64,000 bases of DNA from an uncultured Armatimonadota bacterium (GTDB lineage: Bacteria; Armatimonadota; Armatimonadia; Armatimonadales; Armatimonadaceae), in the NCBI GenBank assembly GCA_903910385.1, contig CAIVZM010000038.1, positions 1 through 64,000 on the forward strand, in the 5' to 3' direction. This document shows, one piece after another, positions 40,467 through 47,167 of this stretch. Under the pieces are notes generated by a model. That model saw only the letters and a list, made by a program, of their open reading frames with translations, ran no database searches and was not told the DNA's origin. Position 1 is the stretch's first letter, and each line of letters starts with the position of its first letter. A program made the translations under genes and the position numbers.

Positions 40467-43400
40467 ATGAAGAAGGAACGCATTGAGGCAGGAGCCGACG
40501 AAGGTCTGTCCAACGTAGAAAAGACATCCGAGGAGATACTCCACGAATCCCGTCGACGATTTTTGAAACAGGCAGTGACAGCGGGAGTTACCGCCGCCCT
40601 TTTGCCGGGCCTTTCCTTAGGAAAGGCGTTTGCAGCGGGAAGACCTATTCCCCCCGCGCCCGGCGCTCCCCTGCCGTGGCAGATAGGCGAGAATGTGTAT
40701 TCCGGTATCCTTAACGTCGCTACAGGGAACTACCAACTCACTCAGCCGATTTGCGGGTGGGCGGGAATCGGCGGCGGGATAGCGCTGAGCCTGTACTTCA
40801 ACAGCCAGAGCTCCCGTACGGACACGCCGCTTGGCTCCAAATGGAGCCATAGTTTCTCTCTCCGCATTATCGGGACCAGTCCCGCCATTGTGGTCGCCGG
40901 AGATGGAACGGAAACGAAGTTCACTCTGTCCGGTAACGCTTATACCGCCCCTGCCGGAATTTATGACCGCCTCGTCCGTAACGCCGACAATACCTGGACA
41001 TTGACCAGAAAAGGCGGCTATCAGGTCTACCGCTTCAACGCCAGCGGCGTCCTGACCACCATTACCGACAATAACAATAATGTCACAACCTGCGCCTACA
41101 GCGGGAGGCAATTGGCAGCCGTCACTGACCCGACCGGACGCGCCCTCACGTTTGGATATACCGGCGGCAAACTGACCTCAATCACCGATTTTGAAAGCCG
41201 CGTCTGGACTCTGACCTATACAGGCAGTCAACTTACGCAAGTCTCCGACCCGGTTCTTTCGGGCGTGACCTACCGGACAGCGTTCGCCTACACGAGCGGC
41301 AACGTCACTGGCGTCACCAATCGCCTGAACAAGACGTGGGCGTTCACGTACGGGTCGGTCAATGATCTGATTACCATGACCGATCCGGACGGTAAAATCT
41401 GGAATTATTCTCTGACAATTCCGAGCGCCGGAGCCGGAGCGCGTACCGCTCTTCCCACCGACCCCTGGCCCAGCGATGTGGTCGCCGTCGGCGGCGTGAC
41501 CGACCCGACGAATGTGGTCGTGCAATACGGATTCGACAGCGCCGCCCGCGTCAGCGCGATTCGCGGCGCGACCGACAACCGGGCGGTTTATTCTTACAAC
41601 AGCGCAAACAACCGCCTTTCCCTGCAAACCGATAGCGGCGCAACCTGGAACTGGTCGTATGACACGCAGGGTAACCCACTTCAAGCCTCCGACCCGCTGG
41701 GTAAAATCACCCAGATGACCTATGACAGCGCCAGTCGTCCGCTGACCGTCAAAGACCCACTGAACAACACAACCACTTATCAGTATGACACAGCAGGCAA
41801 TCGGACGCAAGTAATAGACCCTCTCGGAAATGCCACTATCACCGCTTACAATACGGTCGGTCTTACAACTCAAATCACAGACGCTCGCGGCAAAAATACG
41901 CAATTCCTTTACGATGCCTACGGGAATCAAACGCGCATCACTGACCCTTTGGGTAATCAGATTAACTTTCAGTTCCAGAATGGCAACGCCGACCGCGTAT
42001 CCCGCCGCACGGACGCGATGGGTCGCATCACCGACTACAATTACGATGCGTGGGGGCGCCAGACGGGCATTCGCTACGTTACGACAGGTAATCCATCCAT
42101 TCTCTCCACTTATGACGCCGAAGGTCGACTGACGCAAAGCGTAGACGGCACGGGAACGCGCACCTACTCCTACGATGCTTGGAGTCGTCGGATCAGCATG
42201 ACCGACCCGATGGGTAACACACAAGCCACCTACGACAACGCTGGACGATTGAAAACGCAAACGGATGTAGCGGGCCGCACCCACACCTATGGCTATGACA
42301 ATTACCAGCGCCTTGCCTCCGTCAGCGATGGTTCACAGACCGTGCAGTATACCTATACTCCTGACAACAAGGTAGCAACTTGCCTGTACCCCAATGGAAC
42401 CCGCGCCGATTACGCTTATGATCTTGTAGGTCGTCCGACCGCCATCGTTCATAAACGCGTCTCGAATAACAGCGTCATAGTCGGCTACGCCGCCGCTTAT
42501 GATAACGCTGGTCGCGTTATGCAAGTCACCGAAACTCCGAGCGGAGCCGTTACTACCTACCAATATGACAATGCAGGACGTCTGCTACGAGAAGAGCGCA
42601 CGATTGACCCTCCGTACTTAGGTGTCTATACTTATAACGCCAAAGGCAATCGCCTTACCGCCCTCCGCTCTGAAAATGGTATTGTGTCGCATAACGGAAC
42701 TTATTCTTACGATGACGCTTCTCGATTAATTCAGGTGGTTGACCTTGCCATTGGAGTGACTGACCTCTACACATGGAACAGCGATGGTACACTCGCCGCT
42801 TATCCTGGCTCAGGCTACATTCGCCGCCTTTCCTATAATGAAGAAGGTCATCTGACCGCCATCAATCGTGATTACGGCGGGGGAAACATCCAACTCGGCT
42901 ATGAGTATGGCTATGCCGCTGATGGTGGACGACGTTGGGGCAAAGATTACAGCGCTAACCAGTGGACTTGGTACCCATGTGGCGTCTCTTGCTCTGGCGG
43001 TGAGTTAGTCGAGTTGCAAAAACCGCTAAACGGGGGAACATGGCAAATATCGGTTCTTTATGAGAGCATAGGGCGCCAACCTATTATTCGGAATGGTACA
43101 AGCCTTCACACAGATATTTCTGGGGCTGTGACTATGATGTATGATAGCAACAATGTTTCGACCGTAGTTTACGACAGCTTTGGGTTATCCAGATACGCTA
43201 CGGGGAATCCCGGTAATCAGCGTAACCAATGGGGCCGCGAAGCGGCGGAAGGGTTGTATTACGGATCAACTTCGTATTACCTACCACAAACGGCAACAAC
43301 ATTGAACCAAGTCACGCCACAGCAACAGCAGTATCCCTATAAAAGGAACTGCGCAACTGTTCTGAGCACATGTATGACCAACGCATCAACCGCCAACACC

Positions 43401-43610
43401 AATTGCGTTGGCGCAGTCCAGATATGGGTCATGGGATGCCTTGCTATCTGCTTGCGTTTCAAGGAACCTAGGGCATTTGCGGCGTGCAGCGCTGGGTGTG
43501 CCGCGACTGGTCTGCTCTTTTTGGGCTACTGCCAATATAGGTACTATACGGATCAAGCCGCCTGCCGTGAAGCCTACTGGATATGTGTGAAGAACGGCGG
43601 AACCCCATAG
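40467..43610 (+). CDS. Tat-exported RHS/YD-repeat protein with cysteine-rich C-terminal tip
   Basis: 1047 residues. Residues 29-58 form a twin-arginine signal (RRRFLKQAVTAGVTAALLPG, cut near AFA). Residues about 75-170 resemble the DUF6531-type start of RHS proteins (NVYSGILNVATGNYQLTQP, LGSKWSHSFSLRI). Residues 190-940 are YD repeats (for example YDSASRPLTVKDPLNNTTTY, YDAWGRQTGIRYVT, YDNAGRLLREERTID), which build a hollow shell in known toxins. The usual RHS end motif is degenerate (AEGLYYGSTSYYLPQ). The last 90 residues (958-1047) are unrelated to the core: hydrophobic, with ten cysteines (from KRNCATVLSTC to YWICVKN). By analogy with polymorphic toxins this is the toxic tip, here probably membrane-active. 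GAGGGAAG supports the ATG. Small membrane-protein genes follow, candidate immunity genes. Confidence 0.88.
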   Translation: MKKERIEAGADEGLSNVEKTSEEILHESRRRFLKQAVTAGVTAALLPGLSLGKAFAAGRPIPPAPGAPLPWQIGENVYSGILNVATGNYQLTQPICGWAGIGGGIALSLYFNSQSSRTDTPLGSKWSHSFSLRIIGTSPAIVVAGDGTETKFTLSGNAYTAPAGIYDRLVRNADNTWTLTRKGGYQVYRFNASGVLTTITDNNNNVTTCAYSGRQLAAVTDPTGRALTFGYTGGKLTSITDFESRVWTLTYTGSQLTQVSDPVLSGVTYRTAFAYTSGNVTGVTNRLNKTWAFTYGSVNDLITMTDPDGKIWNYSLTIPSAGAGARTALPTDPWPSDVVAVGGVTDPTNVVVQYGFDSAARVSAIRGATDNRAVYSYNSANNRLSLQTDSGATWNWSYDTQGNPLQASDPLGKITQMTYDSASRPLTVKDPLNNTTTYQYDTAGNRTQVIDPLGNATITAYNTVGLTTQITDARGKNTQFLYDAYGNQTRITDPLGNQINFQFQNGNADRVSRRTDAMGRITDYNYDAWGRQTGIRYVTTGNPSILSTYDAEGRLTQSVDGTGTRTYSYDAWSRRISMTDPMGNTQATYDNAGRLKTQTDVAGRTHTYGYDNYQRLASVSDGSQTVQYTYTPDNKVATCLYPNGTRADYAYDLVGRPTAIVHKRVSNNSVIVGYAAAYDNAGRVMQVTETPSGAVTTYQYDNAGRLLREERTIDPPYLGVYTYNAKGNRLTALRSENGIVSHNGTYSYDDASRLIQVVDLAIGVTDLYTWNSDGTLAAYPGSGYIRRLSYNEEGHLTAINRDYGGGNIQLGYEYGYAADGGRRWGKDYSANQWTWYPCGVSCSGGELVELQKPLNGGTWQISVLYESIGRQPIIRNGTSLHTDISGAVTMMYDSNNVSTVVYDSFGLSRYATGNPGNQRNQWGREAAEGLYYGSTSYYLPQTATTLNQVTPQQQQYPYKRNCATVLSTCMTNASTANTNCVGAVQIWVMGCLAICLRFKEPRAFAACSAGCAATGLLFLGYCQYRYYTDQAACREAYWICVKNGGTP

Positions 43611-43742
43611 CAAGCGATCTTCCCTCTGCCCGTATGTTCGAGACAAGTCTATAATCATACGGGTGGGCTTGCCACACATGACCAACATCCGTGTATCCTA
43701 TGCCTGTTTGCCAGTATTATGGATAACAAAGGACGAAAAACA

Positions 43743-43988
43743 ATGTTTTCTCTGACACCGATTGCCATTAATGCCGTAGTCGTCGTAGTGACTGCTGTAT
43801 TCATTGTGACGAACTATCTTCGTGGCAATAACAGAGCCGTGATGACAATGTTTTGTTGCTTATTGTTCGAGATAGGATCGGTTTTCTTAACATTCACCTC
43901 AACAACCAGAGCGGCAAACGAGGTAATCTCGGCGCTAACTAACTCGGTGGAACAGTGTGAGTCGAATGGGAGCGCTAAACTTCATTAA
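43743..43988 (+). CDS. Small membrane protein, candidate immunity protein 1
   Basis: 81 residues with two hydrophobic helices (IAINAVVVVVTAVFIVTNYL and AVMTMFCCLLFEIGSVFLTF) and a short polar tail. No family recognised. AAAGGACGA lies about nine bases before the ATG at 43743; an ATG at 43719 is also in frame. It is the first gene after the RHS protein, 132 bases behind it on the same strand, which is the usual position of an immunity gene for the RHS tip. A membrane location would fit a tip that attacks membranes. The immunity role is an inference from position and size. Confidence 0.6.
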   Translation: MFSLTPIAINAVVVVVTAVFIVTNYLRGNNRAVMTMFCCLLFEIGSVFLTFTSTTRAANEVISALTNSVEQCESNGSAKLH

Positions 43989-44114: not shown

Positions 44115-44118
44115 TTCG
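44086..44118 (+). repeat. Short repeat, copy A
   Basis: TATAACAAAGTAATAGCTAT followed by GCAATATAATTCG. It matches copy B at 44806-44838 in about 25 of 33 positions. Copy A precedes the orphan tip segment and copy B precedes the signal peptide of the exported protein gene, suggesting that upstream regions were duplicated. Confidence 0.55.
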
Positions 44119-44291
44119 GCTGTGTCGCTGGCTGTTGGGCGGCTGCCGCCGCTATATGCGCCGCTATCATCGGAGCCTGCTGGTTAGGTTACGTCGCATG
44201 GAGGTTGTACTGTGACATATACCATAGAGACTGCTCTAAACGTCGGGGAGAAGCTGTGCGCTGGCAATTAAACCCACGAGAAGCCACGTAG
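44115..44291 (+). pseudogene. Orphan cysteine-rich tip segment without a start codon
   Basis: An open frame of 58 codons, closed by TAG at 44289-44291 and opened by a TAA at 44112, with no start codon near its beginning. It encodes a hydrophobic, cysteine-rich peptide: FGCVAGCWAAAAAICAAIIG, then ACWLGYVAWRLYCDIYHRDC, then a basic tail ending LNPREAT. The spacing of Cys, Ala and Gly and the aromatic Cys-Tyr segment recall the end of the RHS protein (AACSAGCAATGLLFLGYC). In polymorphic-toxin loci, displaced C-terminal tips often follow the main gene and can be recombined into it. Here it looks like such an orphan cassette or its remnant. Similarity was judged by eye only. Confidence 0.5.
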
Positions 44292-44430
44292 ACTAAGAAC
44301 GGTAGGTCGCCAGTTCCTTACGATAGGCGACCTGCCTTTAGACACTTACCGGAATCATCTTCCAATAAACTTCTAGGTTCTGTAATTTTGGACTTAGAGC
44401 TGAACCCGAGCATCAGCAAGGCGACCATTT

Positions 44431-44700
44431 ATGTCAAAGATATTGTTTGTGACAATCATATTAGCTATAGTAGCAGTTACGGCTGATTTTCTGTTAAAGA
44501 AGAACCTTACCGCTGTTACGGTTATTCATGTCGTAAATCTTGGTTTTTGTTGCATAGCGCTGGCGCCATACATCTGGACAGCTTTTTACAACGATAAAAA
44601 CCTATTCTCGTTAACTGACACGCGGCTCTTAATTTTTGCAGGAACTTTCTTACTTCTACACTCTATTGTCGGCTTAGTGCGGATGTTTAGCAGGATATGA
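44431..44700 (+). CDS. Small membrane protein, candidate immunity protein 2
   Basis: 89 residues with three predicted membrane helices (KILFVTIILAIVAVTADFLL, VIHVVNLGFCCIALAPYIWT and LLIFAGTFLLLHSIVGLV). No family recognised. Upstream GCATCAGCAAGGCGACC is not a clear ribosome site. Its first 24 codons and about 35 bases before them (44396-44490) are repeated, diverged, at 46446-46540, where only a truncated copy remains. Position directly behind the orphan tip segment suggests it was the immunity partner of that tip; this is inferred. Confidence 0.6.
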   Translation: MSKILFVTIILAIVAVTADFLLKKNLTAVTVIHVVNLGFCCIALAPYIWTAFYNDKNLFSLTDTRLLIFAGTFLLLHSIVGLVRMFSRI

Positions 44701-44805
44701 CGTTACCATAAACTTACCGGATGAATGACGCTACTAAAACGGGGGGCTAATACGGATTCATTTCGTGTGATAAACCTAAATCATTTGTCAGATTCAATTT
44801 CTGTT

Positions 44806-44838
44806 CATAACAAAGTAATGTCTATGGAATATCATAAC
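44806..44838 (+). repeat. Short repeat, copy B
   Basis: CATAACAAAGTAATGTCTAT followed by GGAATATCATAAC, partner of copy A at 44086-44118. The ATG codons of the following exported-protein gene lie inside it. Confidence 0.55.
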
Positions 44839-45555
44839 GCTTCGCGTCCGCTCGTTGTAGCGCTGACGTGTTTTCTTGTCTTGTTTCCTTATATTGCGTA
44901 TTGCGCCCCCCCAAAAACGGAAAACGCACAAGAGGCACTGACGGAAATGGTAGCGTCCTATGCTACGCTGAAAACCCTACGCCTTGAAGCGAGCGCCTAT
45001 AAAAATGACAGAATGGTCTCGACGAGCGCCATTACCTACGTCAGCCCGAACCGGCTCCGGATTGAGACGACGCGCCAAAATCAAAAGAGAGTCGTAATCT
45101 ATAACGGAGAGAAAATTGGCGTAATGGATGCGGACGGAAATCTGCTTAAAAATCTTGTTGCAAACCCTGATGCCATGTTGGCGCGATCTGAAACATTCGA
45201 CACCGCAGATGCCAAATATGTCATGCTAAATTTCCTTCTCAGCGGAAACGAAATGACACATGAAGTTCCAGAAGCCTCTCGCCGAATACGTTTCGGCGCT
45301 ACAAAAATGGTTGAAGGCGCCCCCGTTCGTGAGATTATTATCGATATTGATGTCGAGGGTGACAAAAGCCGAATCATTTACGGCATTGGGATGAGCGACT
45401 ACTTGTTGCGCTACTGTATTATTTCTTCGCCTCAAGACAAAGAGCATTCGTACAAGGAATTGTATTCCTCGGTTGTAGCTAATAGAAAGGCGCCAGAATC
45501 CGCCTTTGTGATTACGCCTACTTATCTGCCGGACGCGCTACTACCGCAAGAATAG
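44818..45555 (+). CDS. Exported LolA/DUF2092-like protein
   Basis: About 245 residues. A Sec signal (PLVVALTCFLVLFPYIAYCA) starts near residue 10. The mature part, NAQEALTEMVASYATLKTLR, ITYVSPNRLRIETTRQNQKR, VVIYNGEKIGVMD and YVMLNFLLSG, follows the half-barrel pattern of LolA/LolB-type and DUF2092 outer-membrane lipoprotein-sorting proteins, which hold lipid acyl chains. A lipid-binding role in the periplasm is therefore possible. The start is uncertain: ATG 44818, ATG 44824 or ATG 44725 are in one frame, none with a good ribosome site; 44818 gives the best signal peptide. It sits among the small membrane-protein genes of the RHS island. Confidence 0.65.
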   Translation: MSMEYHNASRPLVVALTCFLVLFPYIAYCAPPKTENAQEALTEMVASYATLKTLRLEASAYKNDRMVSTSAITYVSPNRLRIETTRQNQKRVVIYNGEKIGVMDADGNLLKNLVANPDAMLARSETFDTADAKYVMLNFLLSGNEMTHEVPEASRRIRFGATKMVEGAPVREIIIDIDVEGDKSRIIYGIGMSDYLLRYCIISSPQDKEHSYKELYSSVVANRKAPESAFVITPTYLPDALLPQE

Positions 45556-45643: not shown

Positions 45644-45735
45644 AAAATTATATGGTGTGGCACGCTATACTCAAAAGGAAAGACTATGAAAACAACGATG
45701 ACAAAGTTTCCTTATGCCAGGGCGCTTCGTATTAT
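45644..45735 (+). repeat. 91-base duplicated segment, copy A (intact gene start)
   Basis: From AAAATTATATGGTGTGGC to GCGCTTCGTATTAT. It covers the ribosome site and first 16-17 codons of the membrane-protein gene at 45686. Copy B at 47077-47167 differs in roughly ten positions and is joined to a broken toxin gene. Confidence 0.8.
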
Positions 45736-46000
45736 GGACTTCACCGTTCGCGTCAGCGCATGTGTAATCGTATTGAGTGGAATCACTTCCTTCCTGGCCA
45801 GCACTCGAGCCTGGCGCATAGCCGACCCTAACAACCTCTGGTCGCATCTCGCCCTTGACTTCTCCATTCTGATGAAGGTAATTTTTTGTGCCGTCTGGGT
45901 TCTGTTTCTGGGGGAACTTATCAAGTTCAGGGTTGACAGGAATCAATCGCTCTTACGCTTCCTGTGGAAAAGCCATTGGAAGAAAAGGGTCAATACCTGA
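45686..46000 (+). CDS. Small membrane protein, candidate immunity protein 3
   Basis: 104 residues. Two hydrophobic helices: VRVSACVIVLSGITSFLAST (about 22-41) and FSILMKVIFCAVWVLFLGEL (about 61-80), then a basic tail (KSHWKKRVNT) that should stay inside. No family recognised. AAAGGAAAG at 45674 is well placed for the ATG at 45686; the upstream part of the frame is not needed. Its 5' end is duplicated at 47077-47167. Like its neighbours it is a candidate immunity or accessory membrane protein of the RHS island, by position only. Confidence 0.6.
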   Translation: MKTTMTKFPYARALRIMDFTVRVSACVIVLSGITSFLASTRAWRIADPNNLWSHLALDFSILMKVIFCAVWVLFLGELIKFRVDRNQSLLRFLWKSHWKKRVNT

Positions 46001-46081: not shown

Positions 46082-46315
46082 ATGATTACAGAAAAAACCA
46101 ACCGCCGCCTCTTTTTGTGGGTAGCGGGGGTTGGGTGTCTCTTTATTAGAGGTTTACTCATCAATATCCCCTATCACCTCAGAGTATTGAACAGCGCCTA
46201 CGCTTCGCAGAAGGGTGATGTCATTCTTCATTGGGTGATGACGGATGGGGTTATTTTCCTGCTGGTAATCCTGTTCTGGATTTACTGCTTCAAACTTGCT
46301 CGATCCCGAATGTAG
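46082..46315 (+). CDS. Small membrane protein, candidate immunity protein 4
   Basis: 77 residues with two membrane helices (LFLWVAGVGCLFIRGLLINI and VIFLLVILFWIYCFKLA) separated by about 25 polar residues. AGAGGAG five bases before the ATG at 46082 supports the start. It lies 81 bases after the previous membrane-protein gene and is probably in the same transcript. No family recognised; role inferred from context. Confidence 0.6.
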   Translation: MITEKTNRRLFLWVAGVGCLFIRGLLINIPYHLRVLNSAYASQKGDVILHWVMTDGVIFLLVILFWIYCFKLARSRM

Positions 46316-46445: not shown

Positions 46446-46613
46446 CGCTGAACGCGAGCGAAAGCAAGGCGACAATTTATGTCAACTGTATGGTTCGTTA
46501 CGGTCATATTGATCTTAGTGGCAGTTAGTGGTGATTTACTACTGATGAGGAGAAGAAATGTCCCTCTTTTCATTTTTGGCGAAAAAGAATATCTATTCGG
46601 AACCCCTGGATAA
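46446..46613 (+). pseudogene. Truncated copy of the candidate immunity gene 2
   Basis: Bases 46446-46540 repeat 44396-44490 (GCTGAAC-CGAG-AGCAAGGCGAC-ATTTATGTCAA). An ATG at 46479 opens a frame whose first 22 residues, MSTVWFVTVILILVAVSGDL and on, parallel MSKILFVTIILAIVAVTADF of the gene at 44431. After that the frame leaves the family and stops at 46613, inside the next gene. It is best read as a 5' remnant left by duplication and replacement. Confidence 0.65.
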
Positions 46614-46947
46614 TGCCTCGCTAAGAAAACTCCAGGCAACCTATGAACGAAACGAGGAGGAAGGTGAAGAAGAAGCGAAAAAGCTCATTGACGCTTTTCC
46701 AGACAGCGCTTTTCTTTCTCACGTATTAGCGCAGTTCGCTCTCAAACGAGAAGATTGGGTTTCGGCGCTTGCATACTCTTCGATGGCTTTAAGCCTTGAT
46801 CCCGATAATCCCAACCATTATCGCCTGCTCGCGTTCATAATGGATAAGAATGGCTTCAACGATTTCTCGCGGGTATTGACACAAATAGGAGTGGGAAAAT
46901 ACGTTCACTTAACGGGATCAAAACCATCTGTCTCTCCTCCTCCATAG
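46558..46947 (+). CDS. Small TPR-like soluble protein
   Basis: 129 residues without signal or membrane segment. Residues about 22-105 are helical with the TPR pattern (LRKLQATYERNEEEGEEEAK, HVLAQFALKREDWVSALAYS, SMALSLDPDNPNHYRLLAF). The C-terminal tail is short and Pro-rich. GAGGAGAAGA directly before the ATG at 46558 is a good ribosome site. Because it follows a truncated immunity-like gene, it may have replaced that gene's 3' part. It could be a soluble immunity protein or a chaperone of the RHS locus; both are guesses. Confidence 0.6.
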   Translation: MSLFSFLAKKNIYSEPLDNASLRKLQATYERNEEEGEEEAKKLIDAFPDSAFLSHVLAQFALKREDWVSALAYSSMALSLDPDNPNHYRLLAFIMDKNGFNDFSRVLTQIGVGKYVHLTGSKPSVSPPP

Positions 46948-47027: not shown

Positions 47028-47076
47028 GCGACGGGAACGTGACAAGTTGATGGCTCAGAATGCGCCATACTCAGCA

Positions 47077-47167
47077 AAAATTTAGGGTGTGGCGCACTGC
47101 ACTCAACAGGAAAGACAATGAAAACAACGATGACAAAGTTTCCTTATGTCAGGGCGCTTCGTATCAT
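47077..47167 (+). repeat. 91-base duplicated segment, copy B (fused to toxin remnant)
   Basis: Diverged copy of 45644-45735 with the ribosome site AACAGGAAAG and the same first codons. The homology ends exactly where the YoeB-like sequence begins, so the junction at about 47167 is a recombination point. Confidence 0.8.

Follow-up and report, generated by a model that had tools for sequence, protein, structure and literature searches.

What does an exported RHS protein do with a C-terminal tip that carries ten cysteines? The question is raised by one gene in the window, the 64,000-nucleotide stretch of an Armatimonadota contig analysed here. What is known of RHS toxins mostly concerns T6SS effectors and Gram-positive surface proteins, whose tips act inside cells. 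The first-pass annotation of this DNA had proposed a Tat-exported RHS protein with a hydrophobic, ten-cysteine tip that could be a new membrane-acting polymorphic toxin. We analysed the protein, its tip, the relatives of both within the phylum, and the genes encoded downstream.

An exported RHS protein with a degenerate core

The gene (40467..43610, + strand) encodes an RHS/YD-repeat protein of 1,047 aa in one uninterrupted translation, with GAGGGA upstream of its start codon. Residues 1-56 (40467..40634, +) read as a Tat-type signal peptide. The N-terminus, HESRRRFLKQAVTAGVTAALLPGLSLGKAFA followed by AG after the cleavage site, contains a twin-arginine motif (SRRRFLK), a hydrophobic stretch and an AxA cleavage site (between AFA and A), all three as in a Tat substrate. 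A DUF6531 domain occupies residues 83-152 (40713..40922, +; Pfam, E 2.3e-8). The RHS/YD-repeat shell, with a degenerate core at its end, covers 40923..43286 (+) and was recognized by TIGR01643 and by 13 PF05593 stretches (Pfam, E 4e-68). Searched by sequence against solved structures, the protein matched Rhs, Tse and teneurin-like proteins. The sequence immediately before the tip, in the degenerate core, is YYGSTSYYLPQTATTLNQVTP. The protein sequence does not contain the DPxGL autocleavage/release motif, and the NCBIfam search gave no match to an Rhs-associated core model. Because this core motif is absent, we class the protein as a variant RHS polymorphic toxin and not as a canonical member.

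The same genome encodes both TatC and VKOR, which would permit export by the Tat route as well as the formation of disulfides outside the cytoplasm. Tat-type motifs also occur in relatives (L025 ARRQFL, L086 SRRSFL and L090 SRRDFL), and the type of signal follows the family of the relative. Relatives of family f8 are Tat-type and those of f15 have a Sec-like leader, and no Tat or Sec signal was recognized at the N-termini of the full-length RHS proteins of family f19 (L036 and L078). The proposed Tat signal therefore stands for the window protein and is common to the f8 relatives, but it is not universal. The f19 tips of L036 and L078 are equally cysteine-rich despite the lack of a recognized signal.

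The ten cysteines are arranged in an exact mirror

The tip (residues 959-1047; 43341..43607, +) is about 90 residues long and contains exactly ten cysteines, as had been noted, at 962, 969, 980, 991, 995, 1007, 1011, 1022, 1033 and 1040. Pfam gave no match to it above the cut-off, and NCBIfam none at E ≤ 1, which bears out the earlier view that it is a new kind of RHS tip. Searches for solved relatives of the tip found none by sequence and none by fold at E ≤ 0.001. The tip had also been likened to halocin C8. We dropped this kinship, given that neither Pfam nor NCBIfam returned a family match and the fold prediction shows a long hairpin of two helices.

The first-pass annotation missed the mirror symmetry of the cysteines. 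Their spacing is 6-10-10-3, then 11, then 3-10-10-6, an exact mirror. With residue 960 of the protein counted as 1, they fall at 3, 10, 21, 32 and 36 and at 48, 52, 63, 74 and 81, and the five nested pairs each sum to 84. The permutation p-value of this layout is 0.0035 for the window tip alone. At the 100 degrees of an alpha helix for every residue, the five cysteines of either set lie on one helix face. Equal-sum pairs on a single face are what an antiparallel hairpin of two helices needs if five disulfide rungs are to join them, and for such a hairpin the cysteine positions predict the pairs 962-1040, 969-1033, 980-1022, 991-1011 and 995-1007. AlphaFold2 predicted a two-helix hairpin, with helices at 962-995 and 1001-1042 and a mean pLDDT of 89.5 from a shallow alignment of four sequences, a score that says nothing of bonds. 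The hydrophobicity claimed for the tip holds to a moderate degree: the best 19-residue window has a Kyte-Doolittle mean of 1.86, but only 1.34 when cysteines are counted as serines.

Relatives carry arrays of interchangeable cysteine-rich tips

When 291 genomes of the phylum were searched with a single sequence, three relatives of the tip turned up, all from other families and each in an ORF that contains RHS sequence or remnants of the core. The window tip and these relatives align with almost no gaps outside the loop. Searched as a profile, the tip gave matches in 15 of the 291 genomes, and every match at E < 1e-5 sits on an RHS-type ORF. Fusion of the tip to non-toxin proteins, which the earlier annotation held would speak against a toxin, was not seen in this set. 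The cores of the matching ORFs are in some cases classical (DPTG) and in others degenerate like that of the window protein; DPTG/DPSG motifs occur in L026, L029, L035 and L037, which have the same tip. Among the 291 genomes, the tip had no match in the family or order to which the window belongs, and with the sequences used we found no relatives on plasmids or viral contigs. One cysteine-rich, secreted-looking ORF (L039, 5962-6582) contains no RHS sequence and matched the hairpin profile weakly (E 0.002). Similar cysteine layouts may therefore occur outside RHS proteins.

A profile of the core end (alignment A2) matched 26 genomes, with up to 18 matches in a single genome; records found by a scan with the core have names that place the relatives in Chthonomonadia/Armatimonadota. 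We extracted the sequences that follow the shared core at many of these loci, which resulted in 98 distinct tips, the window's included. The median number of cysteines per tip is 12, and 92 of the 98 have at least eight. The tips are hypervariable beside a conserved core and comprise several types, of which the mirror hairpin is one. Many are short ORFs, arranged one after another and preceded by only a piece of core, an orphan-module arrangement that has been described for CDI and Rhs loci (PMC3150448). Since many contigs end in or near RHS arrays (loci L081-L129), the arrays are probably larger than assembled. As the relatives hold arrays of interchangeable cysteine-rich tips with their own downstream genes, the window tip is probably part of a large, undescribed set of bacterial weapons whose site of action is the cell membrane or the space outside it.

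Two tips from different genomes, L105 (507-983) and L085 (2343-2729, - strand), contain the phospholipase A2 motif CCxxHDxCY at the same position, with weak family matches (E 0.02 and 9.6e-4, respectively) that both fall below the Pfam cut-off. The L105 tip is followed by a gene whose product begins with a hydrophobic segment and matches a WD40-like repeat; the gene after the L085 tip resembles it by eye.

Mirror symmetry recurs across the tip set

Exact contiguous mirrors with at least four rungs were found in 16 of the 98 tips; 300 shuffles gave 0.52 such tips on average and never more than 3. These 16 tips have 14 different arm patterns. When the cysteine spacings were permuted, p ≤ 0.01 was reached in 15 of the 98 tips where one is expected; the tips are related to varying degrees, and neither this nor the other mirror statistics come from independent events. 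The left arm mirrors the right arm of another tip in 6 of 74 cases, and its own right arm always, the latter by selection. In L025 each arm has an extra cysteine at exactly mirrored places, a co-gained rung. Arm spacings in the mirror hairpins are 3, 6, 10, 14, 15 or 21, which mostly keep the cysteines on one helical face. For the L137 hairpin, which differs in cysteine pattern and has a hydrophilic surface, AlphaFold2 predicted two long helices from a single sequence with a pLDDT of 95.6.

The majority of mirror hairpins are sufficiently hydrophobic to span a membrane. Four of the 18 listed (L036, L078, L081 and L096) are hydrophilic, so membrane action is not implied by the fold alone.

Genes that follow the tips are enriched in membrane proteins

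We defined the downstream gene as the longest ORF starting within 400 bp of the tip, with no gene caller, and used the ORFs after other large ORFs at the same loci as the control. At least one hydrophobic segment was present in 75.5% of the ORFs after tips and in 29.6% of the control, a count in which some of the single segments may be signal peptides; two or more segments were present in 38% and 13%, respectively. The small downstream membrane-protein genes to which the first-pass annotation had pointed are present in the window, and the relatives, far from missing such a gene, show the same tendency through this enrichment.

The identity of the downstream gene goes with that of the tip. Similar downstream proteins were found for 24 of 53 pairs of similar tips, against 11 of 4,318 other pairs, where tip similarity was computed with cysteines masked, some pairs are syntenic copies and the tips are not statistically independent. 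Polytopic downstream proteins accompany 15 of the 27 clusters of hydrophobic tips and 5 of the 35 others (p = 0.0009) at a hydrophobicity cut-off that we chose; at a cut-off of 1.7, p = 0.09. Tip hydrophobicity and polytopic downstream proteins are correlated (Spearman 0.42, p = 0.0007). Several mirror hairpins (L030, L034, L070, L123 and others) are followed by a gene of one family, for a protein with a single transmembrane (TM) segment and TPR repeats. Similar-looking TM-plus-TPR genes also follow hairpins on classical RHS cores (L026 and L029).

Together, this tip/immunity organization and the phospholipase A2 motif in the sister tips make a polymorphic toxin/immunity system that works outside the cytoplasm likely.

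The region downstream of the RHS gene in the window

Judged by the downstream genes of the relatives, the candidate immunity gene in the window is an 81-aa protein with two hydrophobic segments (43743..43988, +). Its ORF opens at 43719, and the ATG at 43743 is preceded by AAGGA; the gene starts 132 bp downstream of the RHS gene and has only a modest ribosome-binding site. A phmmer search found no homologue of it among the relatives' loci.

Further downstream lies the probable relic of an orphan hairpin tip, of which the 3' half remains (44115..44291, +; CX3CX7CX6CX10CX6C). When the 1,261 six-frame segments of the window were compared with profile A1, it ranked second, in an alignment to the profile's right arm (E 0.02). 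The next ORF (44431..44700, +) encodes a small protein of 89 aa with three hydrophobic segments, possibly the orphan immunity gene of the relic tip. It is followed by a 276-aa protein of the DUF2092 family with an N-terminal hydrophobic segment (44725..45555, +; Pfam, E 1.1e-8). Lying inside a putative immunity array, this gene may be another candidate orphan immunity gene; phmmer found no homologue of it among the relatives' loci, and none beside a tip. Two small membrane proteins, recognized from their ORFs, are encoded at 45686..46000 (+; hydrophobic segments) and 46082..46315 (+; 77 aa from an ATG after GAGGAGT). A TPR-like protein of 129 aa (46558..46947, +), identified with Pfam, recalls the TM-plus-TPR proteins after the relatives' hairpin tips. 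The other downstream genes of the window have no clear homologue in the relatives' loci, the single match being that of the TPR-like gene (E 0.022).

Two direct repeats duplicate the starts of genes in this region: 44399-44503 and 46447-46551 (73%) that of the 44431 gene, and 45644-45735 and 47076-47167 (92 nt, 88%) that of the 45686 gene. Both pairs look like modules that were copied and then lost. The GC content is 0.548 in the shell, 0.459 in the downstream region and 0.543 in the whole window. We read the low-GC region as a decaying array of orphan modules, for which the direct support consists of the relic and the duplications.

A stapled hairpin as the proposed toxin

We propose, with a probability of roughly 70%, that the gene encodes an exported RHS polymorphic toxin whose stapled-hairpin tip attacks the envelope of a neighbouring cell, and that a membrane protein encoded downstream protects the producer. 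The Tat pathway would carry the protein over the inner membrane, with the shell probably already folded. In the oxidizing space outside the cytoplasm, five disulfides would staple the tip, the putative toxin, into a long antiparallel two-helix hairpin. Once released and delivered, the tip would act at or within a neighbouring cell's envelope, and the small membrane protein encoded just downstream would be the cognate immunity protein. The low-GC region after the RHS gene would be a store, now decaying, of orphan genes for tips and immunity proteins. The suggestion of a membrane-acting polymorphic toxin is thereby backed in its polymorphic toxin/immunity organization and in export, but membrane action of the window tip is plausible and not established.

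For a hairpin as moderately hydrophobic as that of the window, the most likely mode of action would be insertion into the membrane. We favour insertion for the hydrophobic hairpins by analogy with Tse5, the CDI ionophores and a teneurin-like C-terminal domain. The tip could also be a polymorphic toxin that does not insert: outside the cytoplasm, a rigid stapled hairpin might bind or inhibit a protein of the envelope, or might serve as a module for entry or receptor binding. We consider this unlikely, albeit the most serious of the alternatives. It would account for the hydrophilic mirror hairpins of L036 and L096, whose downstream genes encode one hydrophobic segment, at the N-terminus, as fits exported soluble proteins, and it agrees with the lower value of the window tip once cysteines are read as serines and with the recurrence of the hairpin on widely differing surfaces. 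However, the hydrophobicity of most mirror hairpins would suffice for spanning a membrane, and the polytopic downstream proteins go with the hydrophobic tips.

A structural role, in which the hairpin is a stapled plug or a membrane anchor of a non-toxic surface RHS protein, is improbable. A rigid hairpin could anchor the shell, the window protein has no DPxGL motif for release, and teneurins are YD-shell proteins that serve as adhesion receptors. Yet a plug needs neither hypervariability nor orphan-cassette arrays nor co-segregation with downstream families, all of which the tips display, and two sister tips are phospholipase A2-like. Tat-exported four-helix copper storage proteins bind Cu(I), and the Tat-type signal, the CX3C steps along the helices and one weak fold match (7vw1, E about 1), to a periplasmic protein that contains cuprous ions, could suggest a metal-binding protein that handles copper, but this is very improbable because strict mirror pairing and the co-gain of partner cysteines are required by disulfide rungs and not by a cysteine-lined core, phospholipase A2-like domains such as those of the sister tips are disulfide proteins, and copper storage does not agree with orphan arrays and co-segregating downstream genes.

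Returning to the stapled, membrane-directed toxin, we tentatively extend the proposal, at somewhat less than even odds, to a class of toxin tips, the disulfide-zipper hairpins. Their rung number and spacing would be free as long as the two helices mirror each other, and they would insert into membranes, be neutralized by membrane proteins, some with TPR repeats, and be carried by exported RHS proteins of Armatimonadota. The phylum, which has been little studied, seems to possess a large repertoire of tips, nearly all cysteine-rich, for work outside the cytoplasm. As a rule for a new fold family, the mirror-symmetric cysteine code is simple and can be tested: it would allow disulfide bonding to be predicted from cysteine spacing alone, and would provide dozens of candidate toxin/immunity pairs at once.

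Comparison with known systems

Antiparallel helical hairpins with nested, mirror-placed disulfides are known from CHCH and small Tim proteins and from plant alpha-hairpinins. Compared with the window tip, these have fewer disulfides and other spacings, and their sequences and contexts are unrelated. Nigellin-1.1 and hairpin chains of ciliate complex IV were among the weak fold matches of the tip, none at E ≤ 0.001. In the open-access literature we found no report of mirror-symmetric cysteine hairpins as toxin tips, nor of cysteine-rich RHS tip arrays in Armatimonadota.

The closest organizational parallel is with Rhs-CT/RhsI and CdiA-CT/CdiI (PMC3150448), which share the conserved shell, the variable C-terminal tip and the downstream gene, as well as arrays of orphan tip/immunity modules with short core homology. 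The Rhs tip is marked there by PxxxxDPxGL, a motif missing from the window protein. The system described here further differs in its Tat-type export, in its tips, nearly all cysteine-rich, and in its downstream proteins, which are mostly membrane or exported proteins. Tse5 (PMC10684867) likewise combines an RHS shell with a membrane-active tip, one that depolarizes the target membrane, whereas pore formation here is what we infer. Tse5 belongs to the T6SS effectors and requires autoproteolysis at its C-terminus, and we saw no disulfide hairpin described for it. The CDI ionophore toxins (PMC11630599) are also helical membrane toxins, and they are neutralized by highly polymorphic immunity proteins; they are five-helix bundles with entry domains on CdiA, in contrast to mirror-symmetric two-helix hairpins on RHS proteins.

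Bacterial teneurin-like proteins (PMC13018210) resemble the window system in their exported YD shells, variable C-terminal toxins and downstream immunity genes. Tat is one of the signal categories in the figure of these proteins, and a teneurin-like C-terminal domain permeabilizes E. coli only when exported (PMC13018210). Their FN-plug and NHL domains were not found in the window protein, in which Pfam detected only DUF6531 and RHS repeats above the cut-off. RHS polymorphic toxins with orphan modules are already known, as are exported YD-shell toxins with membrane-active ends, which were published in 2026.
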